Assembly (NCBI GenBank): GCA_907165065.1
Contig: OU015524.1
Span: forward strand, 39,437,295-39,501,294
Source: Caprimulgus europaeus
Taxonomy: Eukaryota > Chordata > Aves > Caprimulgiformes > Caprimulgidae
Reading direction: 5' to 3'
Length of the DNA: 64,000 bases
The position numbers were made by a program, and so were the translations under genes. Under the pieces are notes generated by a model. It ran no database searches. It had not been told where the DNA came from and worked only from the letters and a program-made list of their open reading frames with translations. Shown here in pieces: positions 102 to 49,472 of the stretch (the stretch's first letter is position 1; each line of letters opens with the position of its first letter).

Positions 102-185
102 CACCTTCCCCACGAAGTAGAGTGCTGTAAGGACGTGCACAGAGGCAGTTACCACAAAAGAGCTGATGTGCTGCAAGTTTACATC
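102..185 (-). pseudogene. CATSPERE: CATSPERE exon 10 candidate
   Basis: An 84-nt open segment, phase 0 to phase 0, reading DVNLQHISSFVVTASVHVLT then ALYFVGKV. The donor GGTG|GTGAGTC is good. Similarity to the human VTFQDCFIADFLILLTF stretch is weak. Without the splice it would stop shortly after, so a terminal hydrophobic tail is an alternative reading. Confidence 0.4.
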
Positions 186-388
186 CTACAGTTGGCATCC
201 TGCAGTTTCCTATTCATCTACTCAAACCAAAATGCCAAGTCTTGCAATCCACCCTTAAAACAGGGCAAGCTGAGTAATGGCACAGCTGCTTGCTCAGGGG
301 TGGCTGAGGAGAAGAACTTGCACGGGGAGAACATAAGCTTGCTTCCACAGCTGTGAAGTTCAACCATATTCAGCAGACTGCAAACTAC

Positions 389-467
389 TCAGGAATTCAG
401 TTTGTTAGCAAGGACACTTTCACTATTATTTAAAGCTTTTGTATTTCCCCACATGATCACAATCTCT
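389..467 (-). pseudogene. CATSPERE: CATSPERE exon 9 relic
   Basis: After a pyrimidine-rich acceptor (CCCTTCTTTGACTGTAAG) the frame reads EIVIMWGNTKALNNSE, against human RIVVPMTKDDAL. Joined to exon 8 the split codon is TG|A, a stop, where human has Trp. The frame also ends in TGA at 391-389, just before a possible GTAG donor. Confidence 0.45.
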
Positions 468-1090
468 CTTACAGTCAAAGAAGGGGTGAGATAGGAAATA
501 ATTTATCTTATCTCTTTATATTAAATTTGGCAGATGCTATGAAATACGGAATTTTTAAAACAAGATTGTATTAGTTTACTGTACCAATGGAATGTTTAAT
601 CAGATTCACTGTATGCCACACACATTTTAAATATCTCAAACAAGGATACAATTTCAAATAAATGAGTAATAGGTTGGTCTGCCAAAGTCTGCCATTAACC
701 AGCCTAAATCTGTGTCAAAATTATTTTCCATAAAAATAAGAAAAAAACGGAGAAGAGCTAAATCAAAATATAAGGCCAAAAAACACACTCAAATTTATCT
801 GTCTTTCACTTACGGAGCGTGGATCTGTTCTACAAAAACAATACATTACATATTACTTTAAATTATCATTAAAATCTTGCTATTGAATAAAACTATTTTA
901 TATTATTTATTTGTATGAGAGACATACACAGTGTCTAAAATACTGTTTTTAACACACTGGCTTTGGTTGTTCAACTGCACAAATATTTTAACATCTAAAG
1001 AGAGATCCATATCTGTTGATGTTTCTCATTTTAAAAAAAATATTCTAAGCATCTTTCATGGGCTTTTTTATAACAAAGCTTCTCTCTTAC

Positions 1091-1186
1091 CAAAAATATG
1101 TACTATTTAAAGAGAGCATGTCTTCTGAAGATTTCACCTTATCTAAAGTTATCAGATTAAAAAGATCAGTTTTCAAGGAAGTATAC
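1091..1186 (-). pseudogene. CATSPERE: CATSPERE exon 8 candidate
   Basis: A 96-nt open segment between ATATAGCAG and TTG|GTAAGAG. It contains LDKVKSSEDM, compared with human KVYSSNEKM. Start phase matches exon 7. It ends with the first two bases (TG) of the next codon. Confidence 0.55.
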
Positions 1187-1865
1187 CTGCTATATTAGAG
1201 TGCACAATGGACACTGTGTTGTGCCCTATCTAAGGAGAAGATTCCCCTCTCCAGTAAGGGAGACATGCTCTCTCTGTAATGACATGACAAGGAGCAAACT
1301 GCTGCTTGTGTTAGAGTTGGGGCCTCTGAATCTTCTGCCCTCTTGCTGCAGCTGGAATGGGTAAGGTCCAAGGGTGAGGGAAAGGCAGGGAAACTGCTGC
1401 ATCTTGGATAACAGAAATACTACAGAATTAGGCTTGCATGAAATCACACCCCAATAAACATCCTAGATGAAATGTTAATTTTGATTAAGCCAATGCTAAA
1501 ACATCCACTGCCTTCAAAAGAGGTCAAGAATTCGTCCATCAGTTTAAGCAGAAAAAAGAAGCTGTAGACATCGATCAGAGTTGATAATACAGAAGCATGT
1601 TTCAATCACTACCCAAGTAATACATTAAAAGTCTACTGATTATCTTCAAATTTGCTGAAAAAAATTCCGCATGACTACAAAACTAAATTTGCAGTTTTCA
1701 AGCAAAGACACAAGTAATTCTAACTAGTGTGACTGAGGCAGAAAAAAAGTCTGATCTATGGTTCTTCTAGGATGAGAGAGATTGCTGCTATTAAGGCCAT
1801 CTTTGGCTTCTTGTCAATCACACTTTGTTTAAGTTTGGTAACTGTACTCACTGCATTCCTTCCAG

Positions 1866-1899
1866 CAAAACAAACAAACAAACAAACAAACAAACAAAC
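1866..1899. repeat. (AAAC)n microsatellite
   Basis: About eight AAAC units in the CATSPERE intron, 65 bp from a CR1 fragment. Confidence 0.97.
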
Positions 1900-1963
1900 C
1901 CAATTAAGTGCCCCTTTCTGCAGTAGTATCTGGGAAATGTAAGAAGACATTCTCAGGCAATAT

Positions 1964-2141
1964 ATCATAGAATCATAGAATGGTTTGGGTTGGAAGGGAC
2001 CTTAAAGATCATCTAGTTCCAACCCCACTGCCATGAGCAGGGACACCTTCCACTAGACCAGGTTGCTCAAAGCCTCATCCAACCTGGCCTTGAACACTTC
2101 CAGGGAGGGGGCACCCACAGCTTCTCTGGGCAACCTGTTCC
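1964..2141 (-). mobile_element. CR1 LINE 3' fragment
   Basis: The + strand begins with the reversed CR1 tail (ATCATAGAATCATAGAATGG) followed by GTTTGGGTTGGAAGGGACCT, the 3' untranslated end of an avian CR1. The copy is truncated to about 180 bp and lies in the CATSPERE intron between exons 7 and 8. Confidence 0.93.
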
Positions 2142-3078
2142 TATATAAACACTAATCAAAACAGAAAACATGCAAGAAAGTTTACCTTGAGTTTAACAGA
2201 AAAAAGTCTGAGTAAGGAGCTTAATAGCCAACTTTACAAATAAATGGATAGAACAGTTGCATGGCTTTGAGGGCAAACACTTGATGTTTTGCATTACAAG
2301 AGTTATCAGACAGGTTAAAAAACTGTAAAAAATAAAGCTACTGCTATTTATTTCTGCTAAGTTTAGAGAAACAGGACTTTGTATACATATTTCATAAGCA
2401 AAACTATGCCATTAAAAATGTTCCTGGCTAGTATTATAGATGTTTTCCTCCTAAATAAATAAAGCAAGTAAAATACTGGCAAACTCCAGGGATGATAGGA
2501 ACAGAATACAAGTTACTATTTTCACCTAAAACCTACTGTTTTTATTCAGGAAATCTACAGAACTTTTTCAGTAGTCTCACAACCATTAGGCTTTTTCTTT
2601 CCCTTTTCCAGGTGCTTCCAGGTGTAAGGTGATAATAACTCTGGTAGGGATTCCTAGACTGACAACCACCAAAGTTCCTGTTTGGTCTTACTGCTTTAAA
2701 ATATGTGCTCTTACACTTCACTGTTCATTTTTTCTTGGCCTGTCTAGCACCCTTCAAGAGCATGCTCTCTCCCTCCACACAAGCAGCACCTTCTGTACAA
2801 TTATTTTTAATTCCTATTCATTTGAGCAGATGTTTTCTTAGCTGCAATTTCACTCTGACATAGTCTTCTTCAGAGACGTTAAGAGTGCACAGGGAGATGC
2901 ATACATTCTAATATTTAAAAATTATTACTTTAGTGAACAGGATAAATATACATACCTAGACAAAAGAATAAAGCTTGTGCCTCATTTTTCTCCCTTCTCA
3001 TGAGCATTCTTTGGAATCCTGCAACAGTATCCAAGATATTCTTATTTCTACAATTGACTCCTTTCAAGAAACACTTAC

Positions 3079-3147
3079 TTCTGACCCCTGCAATCAAAAT
3101 TCCCCTGTGTTCTACAGTAAATTGGAGGCTCTTCAATCACCTCAGAC
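3079..3147 (-). pseudogene. CATSPERE: CATSPERE exon 7 (intact-looking)
   Basis: A 69-nt segment reading SEVIEEPPIYCRTQGNFDCR then GQ, with K completed by the next exon. Human has AEEPSI.......GQK. The acceptor is TGTCTAACAG and the donor AGAA|GTAAGTG. Confidence 0.72.
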
Positions 3148-3243
3148 CTGTTAGACATATGTCCTCCCAAGTTTGATTCTTTTCTTTGTAATCTCTTGCT
3201 CATGAGCTGCCTTCTGCAATTCCGTCTTGAAACAATTATTTAC

Positions 3244-3322
3244 CTTGGACAAATGGCTGGCTGTTTTTTTTCAGTGCTACATTTGAATCCACATGTCAAT
3301 ATCCTTCATTTTTAGACCTGTA
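3244..3322 (-). pseudogene. CATSPERE: CATSPERE exon 6 relic with frameshift
   Basis: A 79-nt segment bounded by CTTAG and AAG|GTAAAT. In the frame set by exon 5 it reads LKMKDIDMWIQM then TAG (3279-3277). One extra base would explain both the stop and the length: 78 nt would keep phase with exon 7, and the shifted frame reads STEKKQPAICPR, resembling human .PESASPDE. It is the least certain exon assignment. Confidence 0.4.
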
Positions 3323-3579
3323 CTAAGTACAAAAGCTCCTCTTTTCAACTTCTATGGATTTTAATTAAATATGTAAAGAAAGGAGTTCTCAATTTGACCC
3401 ACACATGTATATACACACAATATCAAAAAACCATAAATTCTAAACTGTCAGGTTTTTCATCTATTCAAATAGACCATATTATCTTAAAATTAAAATCTTA
3501 ATATTAAAAATATTATACCTGTTAGAAAATTTTACTATTATATACTTCCAAAAATATTTACATAGAAAAAAAACCTTAC

Positions 3580-3668
3580 CTGTCTGTTTGTGAAGCTGCT
3601 GTCACATACCACATGAAACAATTAGAATGATCATAAGCAGGCAAATACCGCTTTTTATCCTCAAATGT
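3580..3668 (-). pseudogene. CATSPERE: CATSPERE exon 5 (intact-looking)
   Basis: An 89-nt segment starting TFEDKKRYLPAYDHSNCFMW and continuing YVTAASQTD. Human has RYL....S..CF.WY at this point. The acceptor reads CATTTGAGG after CCTAG and the donor is ACAG|GTAAGG. Exon 4 ends in phase 0 and this exon starts in phase 0. Confidence 0.78.
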
Positions 3669-5275
3669 CTAGGAGACAGAAACATATTTTGCTTTGATAG
3701 ACTGTTCTTCCTAGTGCTATTGATTTACGCTTTACTCATATCAACATAAAATTCTATATAATGCTTTATTACTTTCAGAAAAAGCTTTGATTTATGAATA
3801 TTCCAGCTGAATTCAGTGAAACTACAAACACAGAAGCACGCTTGGAAACTCAAGGTCCTAAAGCCTGGGTCAGTAATCACATTTGTAGGTTAGGACTCAC
3901 CACAGTACTTGCTACCTCTTGTTCAACCAGTAGTTGAAAACTTGAACAGCTGAAGCTATTCCAGAATGGCTCGAGAGGTACTGGTAGGAAATCGAAATAT
4001 TAAAGGTGAAGAGAGCTTGAACACAGGTAGGATTTAGGATTATTTAGATAGAAAGGCTGAAGTGAAACATAAATGGGAGAGAACTAAGGTTTGGCACTCA
4101 GAAGGGGTTGTAGAAGGGGAGAGTTAGAGAACAAGAACAAATAGGCAACAATTAGTTTTGATGTTCATGAAATAAATTGCAGCAATTCTATCGGCCAAGA
4201 GAAAATATGAAATTAAGAGAAGTTTCTTACATGAAATGTGTTTGGTTTTTATTTAAATGCCTGTATATTAGATCCTTTCTGAATAGCAGTTTACATCTGT
4301 GTCTGTGCCACCTTAAACAGAGGTGTAAATGCAGACGTAAACCCAATAGTATTAACTTCTTTATAACAGTCTTATCTAATGAACAGGGATTCAACATGAT
4401 ATTGCAAATTTCCTTAATTCCTTTAAAAGAGATTATAGTTCCTTTTGGTCAGTGATCACCATAAGGGTTCAGCATGAGCTTCTTCAGATCTAAACACAGT
4501 TATAATCCAGAAACAAAAACACCAATTACATTCTTTACAAAATACTGAAAAAAAAATCCTAATTGGTCAAATCCCATTTTTTTTTGTGGTAAACATGGTG
4601 GAAATCTGTGATAAGTTCCACATAATATGTGTTGTTCCAGTGTAACAGGCAGGAAACATGATTATAAACCCATTTAAGAATCAAGAGTTCAGATGAACTT
4701 AATAAGAAAATCAATAATGTCTGCACAAATTTCTTATCTCTCATTTAATGTAAGACTAAAATCCATTAACATTGTCCCATACTTTTTTTTAAGCTTCATT
4801 TATACTACAGAATTTGGTATAAAAACACTCAGTGGTCATTACAAAAACTACTGTGAGAAAGCTGAGGTTTTTTGCAGTTATATATGGTAAGTGGCTGCCT
4901 TTTGTCCCCAGAGAAGATATGAGATGCAGATAGGCCTGTAGAGCAAGCAGAGTAACTGGATATTAAAGGGCTAAGTGTAAAATATTTAATATTGCAATAA
5001 AAAAGAGGCTATCAGAAATCTCAGAATTCATGGATTCATCTTGCAAGAAAATGAACCATCTCTACACTACTTAAACTCTGTTCTGCCTTGGAAGTTTTCC
5101 TTCACAACCTTTAGAGATAAAAACGGGTTATTTTGTAAATAGCATATTAAATTGTGGAGCTCCATTTCATAACAGACTATGGATGCTATGAGAGACACCT
5201 GCATCCAAACCATCACCAAGTACACAATGATCAGACCACAATTAATTTTCCTCACAATTTATTTTCACAGCTTAC

Positions 5276-5345
5276 CTCAGTCTTTACTTTTGGTTTTACA
5301 CTGTAAGTCCCAGCAAACAGAGAGTTCAGTGTCGGTTTTGGTGAA
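5276..5345 (-). pseudogene. CATSPERE: CATSPERE exon 4 (intact-looking)
   Basis: A 70-nt segment reading SPKPTLNSLFAGTYSVKPKV then KTE. It aligns with the human SSP.....C.SPG.HAIKP region. The donor GAG|GTAAGC is strong. Phase is compatible with exons 3 and 5. Confidence 0.75.
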
Positions 5346-7116
5346 CTATAATTACTTAAATACAAATACACATAATACAAATGTTTAGCGCTAGTTAACA
5401 TGAGATATGTGCAGCTTAGAATCTATTTACATTAAATCTTGAAAATTTAGGATTTCAGGGTCCTCTTCATAAGTTTGTGCAAGAGAAAAACCTCACATTT
5501 CTATTAAACAGAGAATACAATCTAGCAGTTCAGCACTCCAATGACAGACAATCTACAGCTTTAAGACCAAATGATTATCATTTTAGGGCATTATTTATAA
5601 GCACATTGGACAAAATTAAAAAAAAAAACAAACAACAAACCAAAACCAAACAACCCAACAAACTAAGAATGTGAGAGAAACGTGAGCCTAAAAGCATGTA
5701 AAATATTAATTAAGTTTTTGGTTCAAGTTTTTCTTACATGTGTGTGAGACAACCTAGCTACCTGTGACACCAGGGAACTACAAGACTGTCTCTCAACAGC
5801 TACATAAACAAGCCCCCTAATGACAGACAGAAGGCAGGGCACATCTCCCAGCCCCTGAGCTCTCTAAGCATGTGGTATGGGTCATTCTAGAGGCCTGCAC
5901 ATCCTGATCATCTGCCTTTAAGGTCACACTTCACCTGTTCACCAGTTTAGTTTCATCCTATTTAGTTCCAAAACATCAGATAAGATTAGTAGCAAAAGAA
6001 ATTAAGCATTTATCAGGACTTGTGTATTATGGGTTACAGGTTAATACAGACAAAAGTCTTTATTCTAACCTGTAACAACCAAATACAGTCTTGGCTGATG
6101 CAGTAGCTCTCACCCACAGCCCTGATGACTCTTCTAAGAGATGGTGAACTCGGGGTGCTGTTTTCAAACAGATAAAGCTGATGTAGGGGCTTCTGAGCTC
6201 CCCTCCCTTGAGCTGACACTTTTGTAGTGACCCAGATAAGGGAACTATTCTAACCAAAAAACAGAAAAAGGAAAAGCTTTCAGCCAATTCAAGATTTTTC
6301 TTAGTCAATTATTTTGAGATATTTGGCATCCTGTTTTAGTGAATAAAAATTACAAAAAGGATTCATACATTCATCAGGGTTTTTTGTTTGTTTCCCTTAT
6401 GTAGTGCTTCATTCTCCCTGACTGAGAGAGGCATATTCTGAGAAATTTCTAAATCCATAAAGTCTTGCAAAAAATTAATCACCCAATATCTATCACACAT
6501 GCATCCTGTTGAACTTTTAGTGCCTGATGCTGTCAAAGGCTAAGACAGAGACAGAACACAGTATCTTTGTACACGCTTAACATGTAACACTAAGGAACAG
6601 GAAACTTATTTACAGCTGCCTTGGAGGGTAAGCTGCCGGTTGGATCACAAAAAACAATGAAATTTTAGGGGGAACACTGTAATAAAAGCTAAATTGTATA
6701 TGCCAATTTTTATATTTAACATATCATAGGTAAATATTTAAATTACAGTATCAAAGATACAGAAAACTGTTTCATTTCTGTTCTGTAGACAGCAATCCAT
6801 TTTCTGTTCTTTCAGAGGAAATTTTTTACTTTTTTTTTTAGTATTATTCTAGAAAATAGTTGTCCTTGCAGATCATAATTTACAAATCTCATTTCCAAGC
6901 AAAGGATTTAGCTTTACAGCTTTTCAGTGACAGTATTTTACTTTCCTGTATATCTCCACTCTCGTCAGCTGCTACCTTATTTACACTTGCATGTGAAAAA
7001 TTAACTTCTGTAAACTGACAATGAAATTTCAAGTGCCTTGTACTGTTTTAACTATTCTCCCACTGAATTAAAAATCTTGCTATTGTGAAGAAGTTTGTGA
7101 TTTTTTAAGTTCTTAC

Positions 7117-7180
7117 CTTTTATCTTCTGCAGTACATCCATCAGGAAATTCCCACTCAATAAATGAAGTTCCTTCATATT
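7117..7180 (-). pseudogene. CATSPERE: CATSPERE exon 3 (intact-looking)
   Basis: A 64-nt segment reading YEGTSFIEWEFPDGCTAEDK, against human YEGTLF.EW.VP..C. The donor AAAG|GTAAGA is strong. The acceptor (AAATGAG) lacks a pyrimidine tract but has TTTTTAAC ending 16 nt upstream, which resembles a minor-class branch point. The last codon is completed by exon 4 to give KSSP, as in human. Confidence 0.8.
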
Positions 7181-8464
7181 CTCATTTAACCAAGGAGTTA
7201 AAAACACTTGCTAGTGCTTGCAAATATATCAATCGTGACAACATGCACAAATACTACTTTAGAATGTTCTTAATCTCATTTTTATCATCATTAAAAGATT
7301 AATGAATGTAACAAAAATAATTAAGGGAAATTTTAACTGGAAAGACTAATTTTAAAACAGTAATAACAAGCAACAAGCAGGGATCAATTACATTAGCACA
7401 CTGTTCAAATAAAATTATGCATGTCCTAACTGTATAATGATTTCTCTTCCTCCTAAGCTAAGCTGACAGCATTCTGGAGAGTTTGAAGTGCTACAGATGC
7501 CAACCATGTCTGGCACAGTGATTCTTAGACTTAGGGTTTTTTTTTTACTATGGCACTATCAACACCCAATGTTTTGTGAGTCACTGTACATCTTAGCACC
7601 AAATAAGCAGGCAAATGCTCTAAAGATGCTGTAAATAATCAGGAAGCAAAATTAACAATTTTATTGAATGTTTTAATGACATTAATGTGACAAATTTCAA
7701 CATTTTATTGCTTAACACAGCTCTGTAGGACACCTGTAGATTAGTTAACCATGGCCCACAGGCCACTTTTGTGCAAACACTGTGCTAGTGCAGGTAAGAC
7801 CTCAGTGTGAAATATCCGAGTATTACATCACTGTCACACGCAGAACCAATTTCAACAGAAAACTCGTACCATGGACCATGTGCCCTGACATTTGCATTGT
7901 CAAGGGAAATTTCTTTGATCTACACTTTTCCTGAAACTCAGAAATTGCTTATAATAGGAAGAACAGTATCAGAAAAGTATTAACATTGTACAGTAGTCCT
8001 TCAACACAATTAAGAAGTATTAATAAGGAGAAAGAAATAGCACTCTATGACCCACTGGCCATGCTAAGCATTAGCTAATAGTCCAGTTGGCCTTCTTGCT
8101 TGTTACTCATGCTCACCTTTGATTTTCTGAATTACTAAAGTTCTTACCTAAATTCTCCTCTAAACTACTTTGTGTGACAATTTAAAAAAAAAAAAATCAG
8201 AATATGTGGCATGCTTCATTAGAATAATTGAAAACATACAGATGTAACAATTCCACATATCTCTTCAACACATCTGAATGAAATGCAGATCTCACACTGC
8301 TTCCATTTGGTGATTATCTATTAAAAATTCCTTTCCGAGTCTCTCGCAATTCATTGGGAGGCAGGAAATGCAGTTGTATGAAAAGCTTGAATGTACTCAA
8401 ATTAGAGTAAAATTTGTGATAAATGTAACTGCCTCAGTTCTTCAAGTCCAGTCAATACCATTGA

Positions 8465-9559
8465 ACAAATGCCTGGCAAAGTTATGGAGAAGATTATTCT
8501 AAGAGCTACTGAAAAACACCTAGAAGACAACGCAGTCATTGGTTCCAGCCAGCATGGGGTCATGAGAGGAAAGTCCTGCTTAACAAACCTGATCTCTTTC
8601 TATGATAAGGTTACCCGCCCAGCTGACCAAGAGAAGCCAGTCAATGTAGTCTTTTTGGGCTTCAGTAAAGCCTTTGATACCATCTCTCACAGTGTCCTCC
8701 TGGACAAAATGTCCAGCATACAGCTGAATAAACACACACTGCTATGGGTGAACAATTGGCTGATGGGTCGGGCTCAAAGGGTTCTAGTCAATGGGGTGAC
8801 ATCGGGCTGGTGATCAGTCACTAGTGGGGTCCTGCAGGGATCCATCCTGGGGCTGCTGCTCTATAATGTCTTCATTAATGACTTGGATATAGGACTTGAA
8901 GGACTGCTAACTAAGTTTGCTGATGACACCAAATTGGGAGGAGCTGTGGACACTCTTGGGGACAGAGAGGCCCTGCAGAGAGATCTGGGTAAATTAGAGA
9001 GCTGGCCAATCACCAACCGTATGAATTCTAACATGGGCAAGTGCCAGATTTTGTACCTGGGACACAGCAACCCAGTTCAAGAGAAACAGGGAACTTCTGG
9101 GGAGAGTCCAGTGGAGGGCTACGAAGATGATTAAGGGGCTGGAGCATCTTTCTTATGAGGAAAGACAGAGAGTTGCATCTGTTTAGCCTGGAGAAGAGAA
9201 GACTGAGAGAGGACCTTATTAATGTTTATAAATATCTAAAGGCAGGTGTCAAGAGGATGGGGCCAGACTCTTTTCAGTGGTGGCCAGCAATAGGACAAGG
9301 GGCAATGGGCACAAGCTAGTACACGGGAGGTTCTGCTTAAACATGAGGAAAAACTTTACAGTGAGGGTGTCAGAGCACTGGAACAGGCTGCCCAGAGAGG
9401 CTGTGGAGTCTCCTTCTCTGGAGATGTTCGAACCTCACCTGGATGCCGCCCTGTGCAACCTCCTCTACGTGAACCTGCTTTGGCAGGGTGGTTGGACTAG
9501 ATGGTCTCCAGAGGTCCCTTCCAGTCCCTACTGTTCTGTGAGCCCGTGATTCTGTGATA
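8465..9559 (+). mobile_element. CR1 LINE, decayed reverse-transcriptase fragment
   Basis: Encodes part of the CR1 ORF2 reverse transcriptase. GFSKAFD is at about 8658 (the first catalytic Asp of the usual DFSKAFD is Gly here), a TGA interrupts the frame at 8811-8813, then SGVLQGSILG and FADDTKLGG (8916-8942). Near 9075-9100 the sequence jumps to the CR1 3' region, so a piece of ORF2 is deleted. It ends with the tail TGATTCTGTGA. Clearly inactive. Confidence 0.93.
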
Positions 9560-9560
9560 C

Positions 9561-10293
9561 ACACGTAGACTGGGGAATGAGAGGCTGGAGAGCAGGCCTG
9601 CGGAGAGGGACCTGGGGGTTCTGGAAGATGGCAAGTTGAACGTGAGCCAACAGTGTGTCCTGGCTGCCAAGAGGGACAACCGTGTCCTGGGGTGCATCCA
9701 GCACGGCATTGCAAGCCGGTCAAGGGAGATGATCATTTCACTCTACTCTGCACTGGTGAGGCCTCACCTCGAGTTACTGTGTGCCGTTTTGGGCACCACA
9801 GTATAAAAAGGACATAAAGCTACTGGAGAGTGTCCAGAGGAGGGCCACAAAATTGGTGGAGGGCTTAGAGGGGAAGCTGTATGAGGAGAAGCTGAAGTCA
9901 CTTGGTTTGTTCAGCCTGGAGAAGAGGAGACTGAGAGGAGACCTCATCACAGTCTATAACTTCCTCACAAGGGGAAGGGGAGGGGCAGGTGCTGATCTCT
10001 TCTCTCTGGTGACCAATGATAGGAGCAGGGGAAATGGCAGGAAGATGTGCCAGGGCAAGTTTAGGTTGGACATGGGGAAAAGGTTCTTCAGGCAGAGGGT
10101 GGTGGAACATGGGAAGAGGCTCCCCAGGGAGGTGGTCATGGCACCAAGCCTGACAATACTCAAGAAGCATTTGGCCAACATGTGCCCTCAGACACATGGT
10201 CTGAATCTTGGGATTGTCCTATGCTAGGACAGGAATTGGACTCGATGATCCTTGTGGGTCCCTGCCAACTCACAACATCCTATGATTCTATGA
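9561..10293 (+). mobile_element. Second CR1 LINE copy abutting the tail of the first
   Basis: A 5'-truncated CR1 of a different, more diverged type: the C-terminal ORF2 region (CQLAA..., [41 protein letters not shown]) and the 3' end closing with TGATTCTATGA. It begins right after the 3' repeat of the preceding CR1. Confidence 0.9.
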
Positions 10294-11690
10294 ATTCAGA
10301 AGTCAATACAACCTAAACTTTATCAATGTTCACTTCTACCATGGGTTCAGTTTTACAGAGTCAATCCCATATATCAGTTTGCAAATGCCAGAAAAGGCAG
10401 TCACATTCCTTCATTCCTTGAACATAAACTCTTGCCACTTTGTGCCACCTCTAAATGCCCACCTGACCTCTCACAGAGCAGATGCAGCTTCCCCAAATAG
10501 GAAAAAAAGTTAATATAGTCCATACATGTTAGAGGAAAAAACCAGTGCTGTAACATTGCGTGCTCTTGCAGGTTTTCTTGCTTGTAGTAAAAGAACCAAA
10601 ATAAGTGCAATTAAGAGTTTCTGCAGTTTTATTCTAAGCTCTTAGTTATACTGCAGTAAATGCCTGTTTTTCACAAGGGGCATTAGACACCAGTTGTGAC
10701 TTTGGTCAAGAGTTACCAAGTTTTAGAACTAGACTATCAACACAGTTAGTGAATCATGTCAATAAAGAGCATTTAATATCTTTTACAATATTAGAATGAA
10801 AGCCTCCATTTAATTTGCAAAGAAAAGGGGGTGAAGGAACAATGGATCCTTAATACCATATACTGAATAAAAATTCTACACCTTGCAGTGCTAATCAGTA
10901 TTGATTAGCTGAGTCTTCATTAAACACTTACAGATTTTCTGAAAGTGAAGAGTTCGTGATTTTCTTTACTGGTTCTATACCCACCAAAAAAACATACCAA
11001 AATAGAAATCTCGAAACTCTACTCTTCTACACCAAATAAAAACAGCAAAACAATGGATTCATGTACCTGAGACCTCTTGGGAAAGTGCCATTACACTAAT
11101 ACCTCATTGCTAGGACACTACCACAAGAGGCTCAAATTTATTTTGAGATTCAAAGGAGTATATGTGTTGGCAATGGTGAGGTGTTATTATGGCTCAGCTA
11201 CAGTGGAAAATCATATCCTGAAGCATTAATCTAGACCATTGTTTAGTCACAAGATGATCTATGGCCTCAGAAGTGAGTGCACTAAAACAAAGTTTGTCAT
11301 TGTGTCAGCAAGACTGGAGAAATCCACTTCGGCAGCTCCTTGTGGCTTTAGTGACTTCCCACAAGCTCTGTACAGCAATACAGAAATCATCGCCATGGAG
11401 GTTTGTTTGTTTGTTTTTAGCACAAGCAGACAAAAATATTAATACTATGGACTATACTGAATGTTTAAGGAACTGTTTTGCTCTTTGAAGTATATACACA
11501 CAATTGCCTCCTATCATTTGCAAGTGCTCAACATCTCTGTACTGAAGTGACTACTTTGTGATAGCATCTCTTCGCAGTGACATACAGGATTTAGATATTT
11601 TCAGTTGTTTTTTAAGAAAATATTTTCTCTCAACTTGGTATTTAATTTTCTGTTACATATCTTCCTGGCATCACGAGATTAGAGTTAAAC

Positions 11691-11739
11691 TTTTATCCAG
11701 TGGCTTTTATAGATCCTGAAATTATTGGTTAGAGTAAAC
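11691..11739 (-). pseudogene. CATSPERE: CATSPERE exon 2 relic
   Basis: After an excellent acceptor (CGGCACTCCTTCAG on the - strand) the frame reads FTLTNNFRIYKSHWIK. This resembles the human stretch around NYRIFSTRSTIK. The next codons are GTT then TAA (11687-11685), and no usable GT donor lies where the exon should end one codon later. Confidence 0.55.
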
Positions 11740-11882
11740 CTGAAGGAGTGCCGAAGCAACTAAAACTCCACAACCTGGGAGACAGCTGCAGATTGTGACT
11801 GCTCAGTGACTCAGGTTTTTTAATAGTTGTCTTAGCAATAATTACATCATTCAGAGTTATGTCTTTTTAATAGCTACTTTAC

Positions 11883-11952
11883 AAAAAAATTTCTTCCCCC
11901 AGGGGTGTTGTTTCTGCGAAGCAGGAAAGAATGAAAGCAGCCACTGAGACAT
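11883..11952 (-). pseudogene. CATSPERE: Possible CATSPERE exon 1 (signal peptide)
   Basis: An ATG at 11952 opens MSQWLLSFFPASQ, a short signal-peptide-like start, followed by QHPWGKKFF and a run of seven T before GTAAAG. Phase to exon 2 is off by one base, which an indel in the T run would explain. There is no direct sequence match to rely on. Confidence 0.22.
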
Positions 11953-12197
11953 CAGTTCCACTTCTAAACCCTCAAGTATGCACGATGAAGGCATTTCTCT
12001 CCTATGGGTTTTTTCCATTATTTTTTTTTTCCTTATGAATAAGCCTGGGGCCATGTTCCGGTGTCTCTGGAGAAAATGGCCTCGTACACTCAGCCTCTGG
12101 TTCTACAAACACCAATTCACATTCTTATCATTAAGTTAGCAAAACTAATCACGCGGGCAAAGCTGTGACATACTGCAAACACACGTCTGCAGGTCTG

Positions 12198-12214
12198 ACA
12201 TCTGTGACAGATGT
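12198..12214. promoter_or_regulatory. Palindromic double E-box at the CpG-island edge
   Basis: ACATCTGT-G-ACAGATGT: perfect 8-bp arms containing CATCTG and CAGATG E-boxes. It lies on the CATSPERE side of the shared promoter. Factor binding is speculation. Confidence 0.35.
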
Positions 12215-12640
12215 AACGGGAGGGGGAAGCGGGAGCCCCACCAGCACCGAGACCCCCGGGCTGGCGGGGACCAGAGACACTCGCGCCGGTTCAGAGCGGT
12301 GCGGGGACACCTGTAGCCCGTCAGGGCGCGCGCTGCCGCGTCCCAGAGCGCTGGGGAACCGATACAGGACCTGCGGCCGCCAAGGCCTCCAGCTCGAGGC
12401 TATACGGAGCCGAGGCCAGACCCGACGCACAAAGGCCTCTCCTCACGGCTCCCCTCAGCGCCCCTCGCCCCTTCCTTCCACCTCCACAAGGCACAGCCGC
12501 CACCCAGCCACCGCCGGGCCAGCAGCGCCCGGTGCAGCGCCAGGGCCTCTCCTCCGCGGCCGCCCCCGACCGCCACGGCCTCGCAGGGCGCATGGGGCAA
12601 CCGGGAAGGGACCGTCCTGCCACAGGTGCGGGCCCCGAGG

Positions 12641-12659
12641 ACTACGCGTCCCAGCATGC
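12641..12659 (+). promoter_or_regulatory. ZNF143/THAP11 (SBS) binding site
   Basis: ACTACGCGTCCCAGCATGC matches the remembered SBS consensus ACTACAATTCCCAGCATGC at 16 of 19 positions, including the TCCCAGCATGC core. This motif is typical of housekeeping and divergent promoters. Confidence 0.75.
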
Positions 12660-12706
12660 ACCGCGCCCGCCTCCGCGCCGAGCCCTGCGCGGGGGGGCCG
12701 CGCGGC

Positions 12707-12723
12707 GCGCTGGGTAATGCAGT
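12707..12723 (-). promoter_or_regulatory. Second, inverted and weaker SBS-like site
   Basis: Read on the - strand this is ACTGCATTACCCAGCGC, about 12 of 17 positions matching the ZNF143/THAP11 consensus (ACT.C, CCCAGC kept). It faces the first site about 50 bp away. Confidence 0.4.
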
Positions 12724-13007
12724 CCGGGCCGCGAGGCGCGGGGGAGCGGCGCGAGGGAGGGGGAAAGCCTCCGGGAGCGGCGGCGGCGGTTTCCCCGCGG
12801 GGGAGCGGGGCGAGGCTCTGCCGGAGGGCAGGGGTCTGCCTGGCGGGGAGCGGCAGGGGGAGGCCGCGCTGGCGGGGCCGGTAGGCGGCGGCACCTGGAC
12901 GCGGGAGCACCGCCCGCCCGGCTGGGAGGAGGAGGAGGCGGGGGAAGCGGAGCTGCCGCGCGCTGCCGCATGTGCCTGGAGCGGAGCCGGAGCGGGCAGC
13001 GCGAGCT

Positions 13008-49472
<36,465 letters not shown>

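Follow-up and report, generated by a model that had tools for sequence, protein, structure and literature searches.

Does Caprimulgus europaeus still carry CATSPERE beside ADSS2, and in what state? CATSPERE is an auxiliary subunit (epsilon) of CatSper, the calcium channel of sperm. Male mammals require this channel for fertility, and in neognath birds it is reported lost or degenerate. The stretch analyzed here ("the window") comprises 64,000 nucleotides of contig OU015524.1 (C2 below; C2:39437295-39501294) in a single assembly of 1.18 Gb and 121 contigs. An initial annotation, made from the letters of the window, placed a CATSPERE relic next to ADSS2 in a bird; identity, order, and the ADSS2-CATSPERE-DESI2 setting have all been tested, and the claim holds. 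We put the probability at about 93% that this locus is a unitary pseudogene of CATSPERE, still sitting where the ancestral gene lay, between ADSS2 and DESI2. The identity, order, retained introns, position, and lesions on which this rests are observed directly.

What can be recognized of CATSPERE

Three exons of the relic lie inside the window:

7117..7180, minus strand: CATSPERE relic exon 1, translation beginning EYEGTSFIEWEFPDGCTAED, mouse residues from 72 on; donor GTAAGA; leaves phase 2
5276..5345, minus strand: CATSPERE relic exon 2, SPKPTLNSLFAGTYSVKPKVKTE; enters phase 2, leaves phase 0; donor GTAAGC
3580..3668, minus strand: CATSPERE relic exon 3, TFEDKKRYLPAYDHSNCFMWYVTAASQTD; enters phase 0, leaves phase 2; donor GTAAGG

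Their phases agree: exon 1 leaves two bases, exon 2 takes one, and exon 3 begins on a codon. The initial annotation had described nine minus-strand segments, without coordinates for the nine, as having splice borders and mostly compatible phases. Three of these stand (7180-7117, 5345-5276, and 3668-3580), as do their borders and phases, and the others found no support. The span it proposed, 102 to 11739, is not confirmed; read-through pieces over window positions 7150-8460 and 10320-12900 are without a CATSPERE match.

Joined and searched alone, the three exons match mouse CATSPERE in the PDB with an expect value (E) of 2.5e-10; the 13 other sequences listed are all named as one unrelated enzyme, with E of at least 1. 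The mouse references are PDB 7eeb_H and 9ubw_H. Exon 1 aligns with the mouse protein, exon 2 aligns without gaps to mouse SPKTTLHCKRAGIHTIKP, and exon 3 corresponds to the CYLWYFT stretch. Exon 3 also tops a list of six splice-bounded open segments, although not a looser list. For three hand-read segments, including one that was subsequently dropped, the PDB matches were the two mouse CATSPERE sequences and nothing else (E 0.024 and 0.029).

Family profiles point the same way. A first look at the three minus-strand frames brought up a single CATSPERE family, PF22841 (CATSPERE_NTD1), at 24.1 bits, below its cut-off of 27. In six-frame profile searches of the whole 1.18 Gb genome, in which the best candidates alone were scored, the best place for this model is exon 1 (28.2 bits), and the next place reaches 17.1 bits. 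The bulk of the recognizable relic lies outside the window, at C2:39423979-39436855, towards DESI2:

C2:39436855-39436772, minus strand: CATSPERE NTD2 piece; genome-wide best place of the NTD2 model, 20.5 bits, E 0.44, below cut-off
C2 ~39431388-39430931, minus strand: long CATSPERE relic exon, from a frameshift-aware alignment to the mouse letters
C2:39430503-39430306, minus strand: CATSPERE relic exon
C2 ~39425801-39425421, minus strand: exon covering the propeller end and the immunoglobulin (Ig)-like domain
C2:39424035-39423979, minus strand: short post-Ig exon

Joining exons 1-3 with the NTD2 piece raises the NTD1 score to 44.3 bits. The beta-propeller model scores 53.1, 42.4, 26.9, 21.2, and 18.2 bits at this locus, against at most 21.1 bits at the four other places listed, and the Ig-like model has its only match here (42 bits). 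Four CATSPERE models thus have their genome-wide best place within one stretch of ~19 kb; NTD1, beta-propeller, and Ig-like exceed their curated cut-offs and NTD2 does not. The later part, as a joined read-through from beta-propeller to Ig, matches the two mouse CATSPERE sequences and nothing else among 177,635 PDB sequences (E=5.7e-40). Over the aligned pieces, identity to mouse CATSPERE is 29-50%. More of the relic survives than the initial annotation recognized: it continues outside the window as far as the Ig-like domain. It is also broken.

A scan with the mouse letters, which is not steered by any choice of exons, compared 123 minus-strand chunks of the interval with 561 control chunks for each query. 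The first query scored 71, 57, 52, and 41 against a control maximum of 49, with exon 1 (71) and exon 2 (52) both above it; the second scored 118, 85, and 58 (control maximum 43), and the third 125 (control maximum 42). The first-query matches run down the strand as the mouse residue numbers rise, and the expectation of collinearity is borne out. The post-Ig exon scores 35, under control, and is kept because joining it to the Ig-like exon gives 56 bits over model positions 1-82, compared with 42 bits over 1-68 for the latter by itself.

A third-query match at 39414337 (47, above the control maximum of 42) is in the wrong order and is taken as chance. The segment at window 7785-7919 (minus strand), ending GPWYEFSVEIGSACDSDVILGYFT, was considered as an upstream exon; it did not align to mouse CATSPERE, had no Pfam match by itself, and left the joined score no higher. 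It was dropped for adding nothing, and the three-exon PDB test was repeated without it. This segment is open, has a plausible donor at its end, and reads like a beta-rich extracellular domain. A join of the dropped segment with exons 1-3 and the NTD2 and Ig pieces matches only the two mouse CATSPERE sequences in the PDB (E=3.3e-20).

The lesions and the status of the locus

Is the gene broken? A scripted frameshift-aware alignment to the mouse letters places frameshifts at C2:39431250 and C2:39431018-39431015 and an in-frame TAA at C2:39430963-39430961; its score is 174, and none of 25 similarly long random pieces of the window exceeded 38. A TGA follows at C2:39425684-39425682, with the alignment to mouse CATSPERE continuing on either side without a gap. 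The total is 2 frameshifts and 2 in-frame stops in 463 assigned codons (~1.4 kb), all outside the window.

Two further sites were left out of this count. At the NTD2 piece, similarity to mouse CATSPERE carries on upstream beyond a long tract of pyrimidines, at which an AG acceptor would be expected but is missing; still further up stands an in-frame TAA. This border is probably an extra lesion, either the TAA or a lost acceptor. A TGA at window 7184-7182, just upstream of the assumed start of exon 1 and inside the NTD1 genome match, is taken as intronic; the acceptor there is weak, so it may instead be an extra in-frame stop.

The C-terminal end could not be recovered. CATSPERD-E_C (PF22850), the domain that carries the membrane segment in the CATSPERE family, gave nothing above cut-off genome-wide (best 14.7 bits, on another contig) and was not found in a piecewise scan of C2:39418295-39424054. 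Please note that read-through scans of ~3,300 residues are insensitive: one missed a beta-propeller exon, yet the same exon scores 52.2 bits in a 333-residue piece. Negatives from the long scans therefore count for little, and we rely on the piecewise scans and the genome search; C2:39412800-39418294 is covered by the long-piece family scan and the genome-wide CATSPERD-E_C search only. Two candidate C-terminal exons, PVDVVCEKPNFTTHRIP and YSLKYLQKHYLNLIPT, gave no extension, and two unrelated PDB sequences were listed for them (E 0.23 and 1.3). No counterpart was found for mouse residues 1-70, the pre-propeller stretch, some of the propeller, and almost all that follows the Ig-like domain; for about half of mouse CATSPERE the relic yielded no counterpart. 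Elsewhere in the genome, the five CATSPERE models showed no second, intact copy above cut-off among the candidates scored.

A working CATSPERE would have an open reading frame through its extracellular domains, and here that frame is interrupted. With frameshifts and stops disrupting the reading frames, and with the C-terminal domain undetectable, the locus probably makes no working subunit now. The exons are dispersed over ~20 kb with splice borders and have kept their introns, which sets the relic apart from a processed pseudogene, where introns are absent.

Several points weigh against a unitary pseudogene and should be kept in mind. The joined N-terminal piece also hits the PKD domain, at 20.8 bits (below the cut-off of 23.5). 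Exon 3 scores 41 in the scan, within background (control maximum 49), and the case for it is made by its order, phase, and splice sites together with the joined match. All three exons in the window are open, every counted lesion lying outside it. Both frameshifts sit near short homopolymer runs (C6 and T5), which are error-prone, although the two stops are independent of these; all lesions are read from one assembly. Exon borders were inferred without a reptile or a second bird as reference. Finally, the genome search scores its best candidates only, and the parts that escaped detection could be diverged instead of deleted.

The age of the break and other readings

How might the gene have come to this state? 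The loss of other CatSper subunits in the ancestors of this bird would have released CATSPERE from selection, and the gene would then have decayed in place without any role. The initial annotation proposed a search of the same genome for other subunits, and this yielded a part of CATSPERB. Two open exons on contig C9 (18255957-18257952) match CATSPERB_C at 39 and 35.3 bits and reach 86.8 bits when joined, over model positions 39-112 of 258; the rest of CATSPERB_C was not found beyond these two exons. In the genome-wide searches, the first CATSPERB domain (best 18.8 bits) and the CATSPERD propeller (best 17.9 bits, E 0.61) stayed under their cut-offs, and the CATSPERG propeller had no candidate, in a search that rings in 0 control genomes. 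Across the B, D, E, and G models, the genome thus holds scattered CatSper fragments, matching the published neognath pattern. A chicken CatSper-beta fragment of 66 residues has been reported, and the same CATSPERB piece perhaps persists in several birds.

The alternative that survives best, and that we still consider unlikely, is a late loss, in which CATSPERE stayed under selection long after the loss of the pore subunits and was broken only in the last ~10-50 million years (My). Its argument is the lesion load: two stops and two frameshifts across 463 codons look light for ~90 My of neutral decay. We assumed neutral rates of 1.2e-9, 1.9e-9, and 3.3e-9 per site per year, together with assumed indel ratios. 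At 1.9e-9, 90 My would bring ~8 stops and 9.5-19 frameshifts, and the probability (P) of a total of four or fewer is at most 1e-4; 10 My (P 0.95-0.81) and 20 My (P 0.65-0.28) fit, and 30 My is marginal (P 0.30-0.05). At 1.2e-9, P is 0.014 to 0.0002 for 90 My and 0.26 to 0.04 for 50 My, making ages to ~50 My possible, and at 3.3e-9 the age would be ~5-20 My.

However, the dating of the break from its lesions is weak. The exons were found by being readable, so that lesion-poor pieces are over-counted; half or so of the mouse protein is missing from the tally; and the two uncounted sites (the TGA at the exon 1 border and the NTD2 TAA or lost acceptor) may add to it. The assumed rates do not come from this lineage, a literature search for avian rates having found none, and the indel ratios are assumed as well. 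In addition, STK33 remnants are still recognizable after ~100 My, being reported in 28/28 neognaths examined (PMC4509753, 2015). The initial annotation had taken a copy this readable to mean recent loss, or a part of the complex outliving the channel, or retention in some birds; readability by itself does not show recent loss.

A more specific version is somewhat less probable still: CATSPERE would have outlived the channel by tens of My, perhaps in another role at the sperm membrane, and would have been broken recently and independently of other neognaths.

That a shortened CATSPERE still works, for example as a secreted N-terminal piece made from the open exons, is very improbable. The exons in the window are indeed open and phase-compatible, with good donors. 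Against this, the first exon and start were not found in the piecewise read-through scan, the next exon has an in-frame TAA upstream or else lacks an AG acceptor, the later exons are broken, and the genome offers no candidate for the CATSPERG propeller, in a search silent in its control genomes too. Chance resemblance of short open segments to CATSPERE is refuted: exon 3 lies within the scan background and by itself found no CATSPERE in the PDB (one unrelated match, E 0.25), and the first profile look stayed below cut-off, but the joined pieces reach E=2.5e-10, 3.3e-20, and 5.7e-40, all to one protein, in collinear order, with the expected neighbors, and with four models at their genome-wide best within ~19 kb.

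Neighboring genes and known systems

Both neighbors of the pseudogene are in place, in the order ADSS2-CATSPERE-DESI2, as in mammals. The head-to-head arrangement described in the initial annotation is confirmed, with ADSS2 on the plus strand and the relic on the minus strand:

13008..13175, plus strand: first coding exon of ADSS2, Pfam Adenylsucc_synt 51.2 bits, model positions 1-30, followed by GT

DESI2 comes next on the strand of the relic, as Peptidase_C97 exons on the minus strand. Between exon 1 of the relic and ADSS2, window positions 8406-10330 hold CR1-like retroelement remnants with reverse-transcriptase-like open frames on the plus strand, recognized by eye. A globin search of the genome lists three genes side by side on contig C16, four on C1, and two more elsewhere. 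The alpha-A-like one is close to avian chains in the PDB, which score 210-227 bits with no single chain ahead of the others; the entries ranking higher are human-type constructs of two domains, whose totals add up two copies.

Are CatSper remains in a bird a surprise? The initial annotation overstated this. PMC2572835 (2008) reports that CatSper-beta is degenerate in chicken and that fragments of CatSper3 occur there and in zebra finch. PMC6679542 (2019) describes fragments of CATSPER3, B, D, and E in zebra finch and the same plus CATSPER2 in chicken, with CATSPER1, 4, and G present in ratites and missing from zebra finch and chicken. Among palaeognaths, a kiwi and a tinamou are reported to conserve CatSper (PMC6660944). 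The statement in PMC11289002 that birds lack CatSper1 only is in conflict with the other papers. According to PMC4463845, C1ORF101 is one of the chicken genes whose stop-gain variants reach very high frequency in >10 lines; the authors of that paper see a possible advantage, whereas we read the variants as relaxed constraint.

Compared with mouse CATSPERE (7eeb_H and 9ubw_H), the bird relic has the same domain order; the mouse protein is complete (985 residues in 7eeb_H), whereas the bird copy is broken and its C-terminal domain undetectable. CATSPERE of zebra finch and chicken is likewise very partial, the zebra finch locus having been checked by its neighbors (PMC6679542); the passages of that paper give neither lesions nor an exon map, and here exon places, frames, and lesions are mapped. 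Chicken and zebra finch CatSper-beta and CatSper3 belong to the same complex and met the same fate, with synteny conserved in chicken (PMC2572835), but these are other subunits, and the passages of that source do not name epsilon.

STK33 was likewise broken in place in neognaths, through exon loss, indels, and stops, and kept in palaeognaths; unlike CATSPERE it is a kinase, and its break was dated to ~100 My from 28 neognath species (PMC4509753). A long relic with mapped lesions offers a concrete locus for dating the loss of CatSper, once or piecemeal. As it stands, the relic confirms the published losses and does not alter them: it is a further case of that loss, to which, as far as prior maps in the open-access literature go, the lesion map is our addition.

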